Assembly: GCF_000150955.2 (NCBI RefSeq) | Contig: NC_011684.1 | Coordinates: 558,001-622,000, forward strand | Direction: 5' to 3' | DNA length: 64,000 bases | DNA from: Phaeodactylum tricornutum CCAP 1055/1 | Taxonomy: Eukaryota; Bacillariophyta; Bacillariophyceae; Surirellales; Neidiaceae | In this document: piece after piece, positions 532-50,121 of the stretch | Layout of the letters: every line of letters starts with the position of its first letter | How positions within the stretch are numbered: position 1 is the first letter of the stretch | The notes under the pieces: model-generated | Told to the model about the DNA's origin: nothing | What the model saw: only the letters and a program-made list of their open reading frames with translations | The model's database searches: none | Position numbers and translations under genes: made by a program

Positions 532-2145
532 TTATTGTGAGTCCACGTGGCCACGAAATAAGGCTGACAATATTACTGTGCGCGCCTCCTTAACTCCATG
601 TGCATAGTTTTGATTCACACTTGCGACATCCATGTTAGGCGAATCATGTCCATGAGACATGTCGCAAGGAGGCATACCGTAACACTCCCCATCAGCCTGC
701 TTGGTGGTCTTGAAAGTCTTCACCTCACAATTTGATGTATCACCTTGCCAGAACAAGAGTGGCTTAAGGACTGGCCATGCCTGTTGAAAACCCCAGTGCT
801 TACTGAGCACATCTGCCACGTTTTCGGCTCCCAAGATTTTCTGGAAATCAACAACTCCTGCTGCAATTGCCTCACAAACGCGATGATAAGACAATGCATT
901 ATGACGCTTGTTTATGGGCGACTGAGGTTCTGTTGAGCTAGTAATCACTGACTGGTTGTCACCAAACAAGATTGTCTTTCCTGTCACTGGTACTCCAAGG
1001 TAACGGAGGGTAGTACGGATGTCCATGATTTGCTCAACTGCAATCCGAGCTGCAACAAACTCAGACCCATAGGTGGCAGTCTCAACAGTAGCCTGACGCT
1101 TTGAGAACCATTCAAAGGGAGTCTTGTTGATAAGATGGAGGACTCCTGTCACAGAACGACCTGTTACCATGTCGTGGTATAGGTTTGCATCAACGTAGCT
1201 TGTTAGAGTGACATGCTTTCCAAGTGCCGTTGGTGCATCATGAGGAAGAAGTTCTTTGACATCCCCGTATACAGAAGTTGCCCAGTTATGACGCTTGTCC
1301 GGTAGTTCTGAGTAGTTGGGCTCATCAGTACGAACCCGAATAGCACCATTCTTCATCTTCTTGACGTAACCGTACATCCGCTTGAGTCGATCAAGATGTC
1401 CTTCACGGGATGCCACTCGAAATCTTGACATACTCATAACAGCAGTGGCTATATCAAATCGACCTAGTGTGATGAGCCATTGCAAGCTCCCAATGAGTGA
1501 CTGGTACTGCTTTATCCCGTCTTCACTGAGTTCCGATGTAGCATCTAGTTCCGGATGGTCTCCTTTCTCTAGTGGGGACACATACATCTTGGGCTGTTCA
1601 CCATACATCCTCTCATACTGCTCCATCATACATGCAATATATTTTTCTTTGGGTGGTATGAAAGAGTGCCGTCCTTGTCTCGCTCAAAAGTACATCCCAA
1701 GTGGTATTCAAGAGGACCAACACTTTTGAGCTTGTACTTGTGTTGCTCCTTGAGTTGATCAATGATATCTCCAGGACTGTGGGCTGCAACGGCGATGTTG
1801 TCAACCCAGACCACAATGTACTTGTATACTCTACCATTGGCTCGTATCCAGACATCCGAGTCGGCCTTACTTGCTGTGAACCCAAGGTCCCGAAGGGTGT
1901 CCGCAAATCTCTCATGCCATCGGAGTCCACTGCTCCTGAGACCATACAGTGCCTTGTTGATAACAAGAATGTGTCCTTCTAGCTCGGCAAATTCCGGACC
2001 AGCTACAACAAAGACCTTTTCTTTGGTCTTGGCTTCCAGGTATGCATTCCCTATGTCTGCTCCCCATAGCTTTAGACTGTTGAGTTCAGCTAGGAATACA
2101 ACAATACGCAAGCTTCGTAGCGAGACAACTCCAGATCCAGTATTT
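532..2145 (-). mobile_element. Fossil Ty1/copia retrotransposon fragment (diatom CoDi-like)
   Basis: The minus-strand translation is the C-terminal half of a copia polyprotein. The reverse transcriptase comes first at the high-coordinate end, with the usual stretches around an ADIGNAYLEA-type segment and YGLRSSGLRWHER. It is followed by the connection region and an RNase H domain with FGDNQSV and KRHNALSYH. This order (RT then RNase H, integrase upstream) is copia rather than gypsy. The gag, protease and integrase parts are absent and at least one break interrupts what remains, so it is a fragment and not active. Both LTRs are unproven. Its 5' side (high coordinates) abuts the elongase gene. 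Age cannot be set without LTR pairs; the readable protein suggests it is not very old. Confidence 0.9.
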
Positions 2146-6216: not shown

Positions 6217-7922
6217 CTAAACAATCTGGATAGGGATTGCTTCGTAAATGGCCTTCTGGGGCGTCGTATCTCCAGTACGTCCGCAGCCAGCAGCGCTGCA
6301 AACGCCGGAACCTTGGCAACATCCGCAGCAAGCCTGTTCAACCGTCAAGGTGCCGTTCTTGCGATCCTCAAGGGTTGCGTTACAGCAGCAACAACATTCA
6401 CAATCACCAGCCAACTTCCATTCCTTGCTTGCCGTTTTCTTGTCGTCGTCACAGCAGCAATCCTCATTGTCGCCGTCGCAGTTGCAGCCCGCGTCTCCAT
6501 TGGCCCCACAGCACGACGCACAGGACGGGGCACAAACTCCGGTTCCTTGGCAGCATCCACAGCAAGCCTGTTCGGCGGTGAGCGATCCGTTCTTGGCGTC
6601 ATCCGTGGTGGCGCTGCAGCAGCAACAGGCACAGACGTGGACGGGTTTGGGGGCAAAGGCGACGACCCCAAACAAGATCACGGAAAGGCAGACGCAGAGT
6701 GGCAGAACATACTGGGGTGCCGTCCAGAGTGCAGTCATGAGGAGCATCAATGTGGAGATACGCAGTAGGAACATCACGTGTAGGAGGCGACGAAAAGTTG
6801 CGGCGTGGCGGCCAAACTTCATGAGCGAAAACCAAGGCAAAGGCGGAACGCTGCCAATTTCTTCACCAATCCTTTCTTCCACCAAGTTTTTGAGAGCCGG
6901 GGTGCTGTAAATGGCTTTGAGGATATTAATCTTGAGGCGACGGTGTTCCTTGCGTTCTTTACGCTTGCGCAGGAAGGCTACAATCACGGTGAAAATAACA
7001 AAGGCGTACATGACCGAAAAATTGGTCACGAGACTCATATCGTACTGGCTGCGTTGCACACGAGCCGTGTACTGAGCGACCCGCGCCGACTGCAAGTTTT
7101 CCAGAGCCACACCGCAATTGTGCGTAACCGCGGCATGTTCAAAGGCCGTTTGCAGGCATCGGTTGCGTTGCGGGGATCCAAAGGGGAGTAGAGCCAAACG
7201 GTGTTGGTGGAGATGTTCGGGAGCTACTTCGGTCAAACGACGTGCCATGCGACGTTTTTCCGCCGTCGCGGTCTGGTCTTCCATGACGGCTTGTCCGTGC
7301 TGGACCATTTGCTGTGTGACAGCCTCGACATCGTCGGGGTGAGTGGAAGCGGCGAGTTGCGAAATCACCGTTTGCGCGGCGTTGTCTTCGGGCTCCACTT
7401 CGTGCATCACCACGACCCAAGAACCCGAGGGCTGAGGAGGCATGACGAGTACCGAGTCCATCAAACTATCCATGAAAAGCCCAAAATCCTTCAAGGGATC
7501 CGCGGGCAGGAGCATATCGGCTAACGAAGGCACCGACTGACGAGCATCGCAGAGCTCGTGCACGTCCGAGTCGCACCAAAGAGCCACATCCTGAAAGGCC
7601 TCCATCTCGACACGAGACATGGATGTGTACTGGGAACCAACTACACAGAATGAAGAGAGTAGGAAAGGTTAGGTGACGACAACACTCTAGACGAAGAAAG
7701 ACCATCGAATTCGGTAACACAGACTTCCGCAGCGATCCCGAATCCACCAAATCAGCGAAGCGTAGAAAGACGATTTCGCCTTTCCCATTGAAATCCTTTT
7801 TCTCTACCGTGTGCCGTATCGTAGCGTTTTCGAAGCACCACCGTGTTTGACTTACTTTGAAAGTTTGCGGAGGAAGAAGCCGTCATGATCCAAAGGCAAT
7901 AAGAAGCAAACGTGATCTTCAT
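6217..7922 (-). CDS. Secretory membrane protein with GLG1-like cysteines and two Cys-rich modules
   Basis: Two exons. Exon 1 (7856-7922) encodes a 22-residue signal peptide beginning MKITFASYCLWIM. The intron is 7641-7855 (GTAAGT...TAG, phase 1). Exon 2 (6217-7640) brings the total to about 496 residues. The lumenal part has DVALWCDSDVHELC and later RNRCLQTAFEHAAVTHNCGVAL. This is spaced like the Cys-rich GLG1 repeat (CxxD...C...CL......C..AL), here with a long insertion. Hydrophobic helices follow (MYAFVIFTVIVAFL, then a pair around LHVMFLLRISTLMLLM and VLPLCVCLSVILFGVVAF). The tail carries two similar cysteine modules, each ending EQACCGCCQGxGVC, separated by an Asp/Asn/Cys-rich linker. Metal binding is plausible from the clustered cysteines but is inference. 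I know no named family for the whole. An unspliced start at Met 7620 would lose the signal peptide. Confidence 0.7.
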
Positions 7923-41836: not shown

Positions 41837-42386
41837 AGACGGCCCAAGGCCAAGCCAGACAAAAAGCACGCCATTGCAATGATTTGTGTCTTCAAATCAC
41901 TAATATCTAGTCCAATTAACATTAAAAGATGTATGATAGACGCTGTCTGCTATTTCTTTTCAGTGTTGGCATCACATTTGTATTTGCGTTCCGACAGAGA
42001 GACCGTCTTGTATTTTATAGATTTAGATTACATGTACCTGTACCGCCAATACGCTCGACTATCTAGCAGCCACTACTATAGATGGAACCACGGATACGCT
42101 CTGGTAAGGACTCTCGGTTGAAATCATTTCATTCATAAATAATCAAGGCAACATCACAATAATCAAAACAAACTTCATCCATGCGGAGGTTTTATACGCC
42201 GTTCTAGTCTTAAGACCAATCTTGAGCCTAACGTTGAAGAGAGCACAGCTAGAAAATTTCAGTAAACCATCCTAGTCTCTATTTTCGTAGCTAGCAAATG
42301 TTAAAAAAATGAGATTACAACTAGATATCCATTTACGTCGGTCCCCAAATTTCATTATCTGTAGTTTGCAACAACACTATGGGTCA
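41837..42386. other. AT-rich intergenic region upstream of 5S rRNA
   Basis: No supported coding region; the 80-codon ORF at 41879-42121 is featureless. It probably holds the dioxygenase 3' UTR and the 5' flank of the 5S gene. Confidence 0.45.
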
Positions 42387-42502
42387 GGAACGACCATACC
42401 ACGATGACAGCACCGCTTCCCGTCTGCTCAGCGAAGTTAAGCATCGTCGGGCTCGGTTAGTACTACGGTGGGGGACCACGTTGGAATCCCGAGTGTTGTT
42501 CT
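42387..42502 (+). rRNA. 5S ribosomal RNA
   Basis: About 116 nt reading GGAACGACCATACCACG... to GAGTGTTGTTC, followed by a T6 Pol III terminator at 42502-42507. Helix I pairs GAACGAC (from 42388) with GTTGTTC (to 42501) using one G-U pair. The internal control region is present: box A-like AGCGAAGTTAAGCATCG, then GGGCTCGGTTAGTACTACGG and box C-like GGGGACCACGTTGGAATCCC. It matches the eukaryotic 5S consensus throughout. It is a single copy in this window, between protein genes and not in a tandem array. Confidence 0.95.
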
Positions 42503-42924
42503 TTTTTCCTCATGAGAGGAGTACAAAATAAGTGTCCATTTCGAGGATCGAATTTTCTGAATTTTCTTTGACGTCTGATCGCTCAAGCAGTTGAAACCAT
42601 ACGATGTGCAAGCTAGGACATTTTAGTTCTATTCTACAAATTAATGGCTGCCAAGAATGCATGCGGTGGATCGATTACCGATGGTTGTCGATGGCTGGGC
42701 CTACAATTGGGATGATGTTCAAAGCTCAACCGCACATCCGACAGCGAGGGAAAAAGAAGGATATTGCACCATTTTTTTGGTGTGTGTAAGTCGCTGTCGT
42801 CGAAAAGTGATGGCTGCATGTTTTTTGATGTTTCTGTCACTCCTTCTCATACACTTCATGTCAACGGTTCTCACTTTCCACGCAGAATCATTCCAACAAT
42901 CCGATTTCCGATTTTCAATCGTAC
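42503..42924. other. Region between 5S rRNA and the MYND gene
   Basis: It may contain an upstream exon. A 61-codon ORF from 42604 ends just after a GTGTGTAAGTCG donor-like site at about 42781-42792, and an open frame resumes at 42829 leading into the MYND-gene N-terminus. No clear acceptor or homology lets me join them. Confidence 0.35.
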
Positions 42925-47958: not shown

Positions 47959-48567
47959 ATGGTGTACATTTCAGCCGACGGCAGCGTCGGTGGCAAGCCA
48001 TCACTGTGGAAGTCTTTCACAGATCTAGTAGCTGGTAAGTTTTGTTGGCCTTTTGCAACGGCACAAGAATGGCTGGAAAGGGGTGGAGCACCTTCGATCC
48101 GCTGTGCAACCCGAGTGGGAACTGTAATTATACTCCAGCAGCCAACTCACTGCGTCTCATTCTCGCTTGCCTGTAGGATTTTTTTCCATTGTTGGCCTCT
48201 TCTTCACCACAATTTCAAATCCAAAAGCTGTGGAGAATAGAGCGTCCACCTCCGTAAGTACCGCAAAGAAAAAGAAATTTGTGAACAAAGGCACTTTCTG
48301 AAGGCGCTGGCGATCTTTCTTTTACTTGTGATTACCCTTCAGACCTTCTTCTAGGACTTACCTTTGATTGTGTACGTTTTATGGTTCTCCCCGATTTTCA
48401 CAAAATTGCAGTCGCGCACCTACGCACAGCGCAACAATGGTCGCTCGTATCGGTCCAACGGTCCCGGTGGGAACGCTGCGGGCGGCGGTCGGCGACAAGG
48501 GGCCAACATTCGAGGAATTCAAAATTTAGGAACACCCGACTGTAAGGCCGGTGGGTGAGGACGGTAA
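47959..48567 (+). CDS. SELENOK: Selenoprotein K (UGA read as selenocysteine)
   Basis: Exons are 47959-48034, 48177-48253 and 48412-48567, with introns of 142 and 158 nt (GTAAGT...TAG and GTAAGT...CAG); the product is 102 residues. The protein opens MVYISADGSVGGKPSLWKS, as SelK does (MVYIS...). One membrane helix follows (FFSIVGLFFTTI), then a Gly/Arg/Asn-rich tail (YAQRNNGRSYRSNGPGGN). It ends DCKAGG-U-GR: an in-frame TGA at 48556-48558 at residue 100, then GGA CGG TAA. The end GGUGR is the same as in animal SelK, so this TGA is Sec and not the stop. Family knowledge: single-pass ER membrane protein, in animals linked with ERAD and protein acylation. A conventional ORF finder would end it two codons early and miss the first exons. 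Confidence 0.92.
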
Positions 48568-49152
48568 TGGAGTGATTGTCCGCAAATCCTGCTCGATCGC
48601 TCCGTCGTCGTGAAAGGAAAGATTTTGTCGCGTACGGACCAAGAATTCCTAGTTCGTAGTATGACGCTACGATTGCTCGGCCCAGTTTTGATATTGGTGC
48701 CGCCATTCGTAGTTGAAGAGACAGCTTTCGCTTTCAGACACCTACATTGTTTCCAACCCAAATACATAGATATCCATGCACACTAACGTAGTAACACTGT
48801 TAACGGAATTTTAGGTGATTCCCGGTGTATCGGCGTTACCGACATGAGGTATTTCAATGATGTGATTAGTCAACGACTAGGGATTTGATCGAGTACTGTA
48901 TTGAATATGATGTTGCAACTATAGGTACGTTTTAGCCTTCCAAGCCTCCGAACTATGGCTGCACAGACTATCGAGAGCCACATTTTGAGCCTCTAGCTTG
49001 GAGTTGGATTTCTGCCGATTTAGCTAGCTGACAGTGAGTGTGAATGCCCGCGGCTTCTAGTTTCCCCTGAATGTTGGCAAGGCCAGGGTTGTAAACAACA
49101 AAGACTCGGAAACCACCACAGGACAGGACAACCATGCATTCGCGCAGGAACA
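48568..49152. other. SelK 3' UTR and upstream region of next gene
   Basis: A SECIS element must lie in the SelK 3' UTR (see candidate at 48846-48897). Motif copy GACAGTGAGTGTGAATG near 49030-49046, about 110 bp before the ATG at 49153. Confidence 0.5.
48846..48897 (+). promoter_or_regulatory. Candidate SECIS element
   Basis: ATGA at 48857-48860 faces TGAT at 48886-48889, giving the A/G quartet. Between them 11 nt lead to an AA (48872-48873), then 12 nt to TGAT. The upper stem TTAGTC/GACTAG pairs well, with mismatches below it. Outside the quartet GTATTTC can pair with GAGTAC with one bulge. The loop beyond AA is shorter than in usual SECIS elements, so this is only a candidate. The distance from the UGA is about 300 nt. 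Confidence 0.3.
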
Positions 49153-50121
49153 ATGAGCAACACTAAGCCGTCGAATTGCTGTGAACTTTCGGTCTGGTCA
49201 AGTATGATAGCCGCAAAACGCAGCGACGAGACCGAAAGCGAACGGCTCGCAAAAGAATACCGACAGATTGCATGCCTCCTTGCTGCGAGCGCAACTCAAC
49301 GAGAACGAATCGACTCTATCCATCCTGTCAAGGATACGGGTGTCGCGTCTTTGCCTATCCTGTCCCAAGTGGTAGCACAGCATTTATTGCGAAATGACCA
49401 CCCAGGATTTGTGCCGCTGCTTATGTTGCAGCAAGATGGACTGCAGGGTAACGATGATTCTCACACGAGTCCAGACGGACAAAATGAAATGAATCCGGCC
49501 GAGCATCAGGATACGTCACGACATCTCGTCGCCGACCGCAGTAGTCATCTTTCAACAGACGTATACCTTCCTTGCTGTCACAATTGCGGCGGAGCTTTGC
49601 AGCCCGGGCTTTTACGGACAACAGTGCGGTTAGTAACGCACAAAACTTTAACCCGAGCTCAGCGTCGGAGATTGAAGCGTGCGCAAGCTCTCGCCAAACA
49701 GGCACCTACCCGACAACATCAGTATCATACGAACACCAGGCCCAGTGTATTGGCTGACTTTATTCAACGAGATTCATCACAAGTACCTTGGGACGTTCGC
49801 AACTACTTAAGCATTAAATGTGGAGGATGTCATTCCCTTTCATATGCTGTTGGAGTCCCCCGGAGAAGGAAGCGAGCCGCGCCGAAAGACACACCCAAGC
49901 GTGCTTTCTTGGTATCAGCAAACTACGACAAGAAATCGGCACCGAAGAAACGGCAAGAAACCGGGGACGATTTTATTGCCCTGGGCAGTCCAAGCTTGAC
50001 AAGCAACCCAATCGGTGATCCACGGATGGGAGGGAATCGACAAAGGTTGGACCGAGCTGGAGGAAAAAAGAAAAAGCCGACTAGGCTTATGAATTTTCTA
50101 TCTTCCCTTAACGACCATTGA
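49153..50121 (+). CDS. Rpr2/Rpp21/SNM1-like zinc protein
   Basis: 322 residues. The middle has a CHNCGGALQPGLLRTTVRL stretch and, about 75 residues on, IKCGGCHSLSYAVG. Two CxxC pairs flank a basic helix (RAQRRRLKRAQALAK). This spacing is like the Rpr2/Rpp21/SNM1 zinc ribbon of the RNase P and RNase MRP protein subunits, where the first pair is followed by PG and a run of Arg. The N-terminal helical part (RLAKEYRQIACLLAAS...HLLRND) fits the same family, whose members start with helices. The C-tail is basic (KKKKPTRLMNFL). An RNA-binding nuclear subunit is the best inference; the length is greater than in yeast or human proteins. Confidence 0.5.
   Translation: MSNTKPSNCCELSVWSSMIAAKRSDETESERLAKEYRQIACLLAASATQRERIDSIHPVKDTGVASLPILSQVVAQHLLRNDHPGFVPLLMLQQDGLQGNDDSHTSPDGQNEMNPAEHQDTSRHLVADRSSHLSTDVYLPCCHNCGGALQPGLLRTTVRLVTHKTLTRAQRRRLKRAQALAKQAPTRQHQYHTNTRPSVLADFIQRDSSQVPWDVRNYLSIKCGGCHSLSYAVGVPRRRKRAAPKDTPKRAFLVSANYDKKSAPKKRQETGDDFIALGSPSLTSNPIGDPRMGGNRQRLDRAGGKKKKPTRLMNFLSSLNDH

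Follow-up and report, generated by a model that had tools for sequence, protein, structure and literature searches.

The locus lies on the forward strand of a 64,000-nucleotide (64-kb) stretch of Phaeodactylum tricornutum DNA, referred to here as the window, in which GC content is near 0.49 and spliceosomal introns are present. It comprises three exons of a selenoprotein K (SelK) gene, with an in-frame TGA close to the terminal TAA, and its parts are as follows.

47959..48034, forward strand: SelK exon 1, 76 nt, encoding MVYISADGSVGGKPSLWKSFTDLVA-G, with its ATG in an ACCATGG context
48035..48176, forward strand: intron 1, 142 nt, GTAAGT...GTAG, which shifts the frame if retained
48177..48253, forward strand: SelK exon 2, 77 nt, which encodes the greater part of the hydrophobic segment (mean hydropathy 1.77 over residues 20-38)
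48254..48411, forward strand: intron 2, 158 nt, GTAAGT...TTGCAG, in which read-through meets a stop
48412..48567, forward strand: SelK exon 3, 156 nt including the TAA, encoding a Gly/Arg/Asn-rich tail that ends in DCKAGG-U-GR
48556..48558, forward strand: predicted selenocysteine TGA, in-frame codon 100, three codons upstream of the TAA, at the position of the Sec of human SelK

The spliced frame runs to 309 nt (103 codons) and yields a product of 102 residues, MVYISADGSVGGKPSLWKSFTDLVAGFFSIVGLFFTTISNPKAVENRASTSSRTYAQRNNGRSYRSNGPGGNAAGGGRRQGANIRGIQNLGTPDCKAGG-U-GR-stop, which closes with the codons TGA GGA CGG TAA (48556-48567, the TAA occupying 48565-48567) and contains no other in-frame TGA. 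The initial annotation had proposed a three-exon join giving MVYIS at the start and GG-U-GR at the end, and splicing at the consensus GT-AG introns reproduced this join exactly at the base level. It had also placed selenocysteine (Sec) at residue 100 of 102, as in animal SelK, which agrees both with the codon number of the TGA and with the alignment to the human protein.

Selenoprotein K is a widespread membrane protein that carries selenocysteine as its third-last residue. With Cys substituted for Sec in the query, the product from this locus matched the Pfam family SelK_SelG (PF10961) at 36.9 bits (E 5.9e-9), above the curated cut-off of 23.3 bits, and because residues 2-87 are covered, the match spans all three exons. 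BLASTP against human SelK aligned the two proteins end to end, from MVYIS to the last residue and with GG-U-GR included, at an identity of 36/107 aligned positions (34%). The hydropathy peak falls at residues 20-38, in keeping with the short N-terminus and one membrane segment of the SelK_SelG architecture, and the 60-residue tail (residues 43-102) contains 13 Gly and 9 Arg, making it basic and Gly-rich, which fits the family. The Sec codon likewise stands third from the C-terminus within GG-U-GR, the place expected for the Sec (or Cys) of the family. An in-frame TGA followed by codons for exactly G and R and then a stop would be expected by chance about 3 times in 10,000 (estimated as 4/64 x 6/64 x 3/64). 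Since the Pfam cut-off was passed and the human alignment extends through an identical GG-U-GR end, the earlier assignment of the locus to selenoprotein K, its Sec being the third-last residue as it is in the animal proteins, is well supported on sequence grounds. Relatives whose 3' UTR might be compared were sought in phages, viral contigs and prokaryote genomes and none was found, as expected for a eukaryotic gene; a PDB search returned no relative.

The splicing pattern is not the only one that keeps the frame open, as 299 of 3703 GT/AG combinations at the locus remain open with the same C-terminal end, and it is therefore homology, not uniqueness, that decides the splice choice. So many open combinations would be compatible with a pseudogene or with three open segments joined by chance, but the family homology continues across all three exons, the splice sites follow the consensus, the frame is free of frameshifts and the C-terminus is exact, so that we consider such an origin extremely improbable. 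The gene is a real and ordinary member of a known family, and it is the SECIS that lacks the textbook form.

The published SECIS rule consists of NTGA, 10-13 nt, AA or CC, 15-39 nt, GA, and a stable fold (PMC2375036). Downstream of SelK there is no well-folded SECIS of this strict pattern, the GGGA core variant gave nothing, and Rfam reported no SECIS at its gathering threshold, nor at relaxed thresholds over the downstream region. Weak Rfam matches to mir-2574, sR17 and RMST_5 were dismissed as chance. The region 48568-49320 contains no classical poly(A) motif of the AATAAA type by which the 3' end of the SelK transcript could be placed. We also applied a relaxed rule in which the distance from the core to AA or CC was 9-16 nt, a range that was picked after looking and was applied unchanged to the controls. 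The features that bear on the SECIS are the following.

49181..49242, forward strand: best SECIS-like hairpin, with a GUGA/GA core, overlapping the start of the ORF at 49153-50121
48661..48717, forward strand: alternative and weaker SECIS-like hairpin, located within the 3' UTR, with an AUGA/GA core, 7+2 pairs, and CU in place of the expected AA or CC
49153..50121, forward strand: downstream ORF with two C-x2-C motifs, resembling a four-cysteine zinc ribbon, starting at 49153 or 49204

The hairpin at 49181-49242, which begins 623 nt past the Sec codon, is the sole outstanding one under the 9-16 nt rule. It consists of GUGA followed by an A opposite a C, then a run of ten perfect pairs (CUUUCGGUCU/AGACCGAAAG), a G-G mismatch and three further pairs; AAG stands where the 5' strand enters the loop, and the GA core partner is on the 3' side. 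A larger fold around it adds a five-pair helix I below the core (z -2.65). By the relaxed rule it scored highest among 174 window tiles on both strands, and when the region was shuffled 400 times with dinucleotide content preserved, no shuffle equalled it. Two features count against it: the spacing between core and AA is 15 nt, compared with 10-13 nt in the published rule, and the hairpin extends over the initial codons of the neighbouring ORF, whether these begin at 49153 or, if the second ATG is used, at 49204. The SECIS in the 3' UTR on which the initial annotation made its reading depend is only partly supported: no well-folded element fits the strict published pattern, but a strong, near-canonical hairpin is present. 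We put the odds that this hairpin is the SelK SECIS slightly above even.

The ORF that it overlaps gave a sub-threshold match of 13 bits to the Rpr2/Rpp21/SNM1 profile (cut-off 29.3), and by its sequence it may possibly encode an RNase P/MRP subunit. Elsewhere in the window, inspection by eye indicated that the ORF at 532-1629 (reverse strand) looks like the reverse-transcriptase/RNase H end of a copia-type retrotransposon, and that the ORF at 6217-7620 (reverse strand) carries the Cys-rich stretch EQACCGCCQGxGVC twice, after a possible membrane segment.

The weaker hairpin, at 48661-48717, might instead serve as the SelK SECIS, with CU standing in for the usual AA. Its AUGA/UGAA core lies about 100 nt past the Sec codon, its helix II has the usual 10-11 layers followed by an internal loop, and with CU as the unpaired dinucleotide it folds at -23.1 kcal/mol. 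Against this, neither AA nor CC is found at the required distance; the CC form reaches only -14.3 kcal/mol at a distance of 16, a value attained by 4 of 400 shuffles; and in a longer fold the lower helix does not form a simple stem. We regard this assignment as tentative and clearly less probable than that of the hairpin at 49181-49242, and what probability remains beyond these two falls to something not recognised here.

The lack of a strict-pattern SECIS downstream, together with the lack of an Rfam SECIS match, would also fit a SelK-family protein in which the TGA is a real stop, the SECIS having decayed to leave a 99-residue form without Sec. However, the codons past the TGA read G-R-stop exactly as in animal SelK, and this disfavours a true stop because codons long left untranslated would not be expected to stay. 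The near-canonical hairpin at 49181-49242 argues in the same direction, as does the observation that SELENOK of algae is almost always the Sec-containing form (PMC7539508). We consider termination at codon 100 quite unlikely, if less so than a pseudogene.

The reading that we favour, with a probability of roughly 0.93, is that this is the nuclear SELENOK gene of a Sec-using photosynthetic eukaryote, and that UGA100 is decoded as Sec via a downstream SECIS, most probably the hairpin at 49181-49242. Translation of the spliced mRNA would yield a small protein that crosses the membrane once, near its N-terminus, and has a basic tail rich in Gly and Arg. At codon 100, tRNA-Sec, EFsec and SBP2 would insert Sec with the aid of a SECIS hairpin 3' of the TAA, probably in an ordinary case of recoding. 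The product is predicted to reside in the ER membrane and to carry a selenol at its C-terminus, and by analogy with animal SelK it may act as a redox-active partner of other ER-membrane proteins. Mammalian SelK is described as acting with DHHC6 in protein palmitoylation (PMC5789314). Cys95 of the present protein lies five residues ahead of Sec (C-K-A-G-G-U; 48541-48558, forward strand), and a selenylsulfide bond between Cys95 and Sec within the tail is possible.

The initial annotation took the locus to show that UGA is decoded as Sec in its host, which is stronger than the evidence; such decoding is probable, and the use of Sec by diatoms is taken from published work. Diatoms are known Sec users with 20-44 selenoprotein genes (PMC7539508), and several tRNA-Sec predictions and 36 selenoproteins have been reported for Fragilariopsis cylindrus (PMC5330540). 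SelK is present in nearly all Sec-using eukaryotes, and the Sec tRNA of the diatom Thalassiosira pseudonana has been sequenced; the same 2007 survey did not list SelK for that species (PMC2375036). In P. tricornutum itself, SELO was judged to have a C-terminal Sec that had been misannotated (PMC3281104). Our literature search found no publication in which selenoprotein K, Phaeodactylum and SECIS are all mentioned. No tRNA genes occur within the 64-kb window; a 5S rRNA gene, the only one in the window, lies at 42386-42504 on the forward strand (Rfam RF00001, 101.3 bits).

The outcome is a correct model of a gene for a small Sec protein, the sort of gene that standard annotation cuts short or leaves out. 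If a diatom SelK has a SECIS that falls slightly beyond the usual search rules, this would point to where others may be hidden; otherwise, the locus is one further member of a widespread family. It is conceivable, though we hold it doubtful, that the SECIS of SelK is located over 600 nt downstream, where it also forms the start of the neighbouring protein-coding gene, and has its AA about 2 nt beyond the accepted distance from the core. If so, such genes would escape searches that discard SECIS candidates in coding regions, or those with AA farther than 13 nt from the core.

The protein shares with human SelK the MVYIS start, a W ahead of the hydrophobic segment, a single membrane segment, a Gly/Arg-rich tail and the C-terminal GG-U-GR, in which Sec is the third-last residue (92 of 94 in human). 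The two differ in length (94 residues in human compared with 102 here), their identity is 34%, and human SelK has no counterpart of Cys95, whereas the present protein has the arrangement C-x4-U. Compared with type I and type II eukaryotic SECIS elements, the candidate at 49181-49242 differs in having its AA at 15 nt, in the pairing of the G before the core in the predicted fold, and in its overlap with a neighbouring ORF. Like them, it has a UGA/GA core with a lower helix, a stable helix II and an AA in the 5' part of the loop, and the G that precedes its core is likewise found in the SECIS elements of Ostreococcus (PMC2375036).
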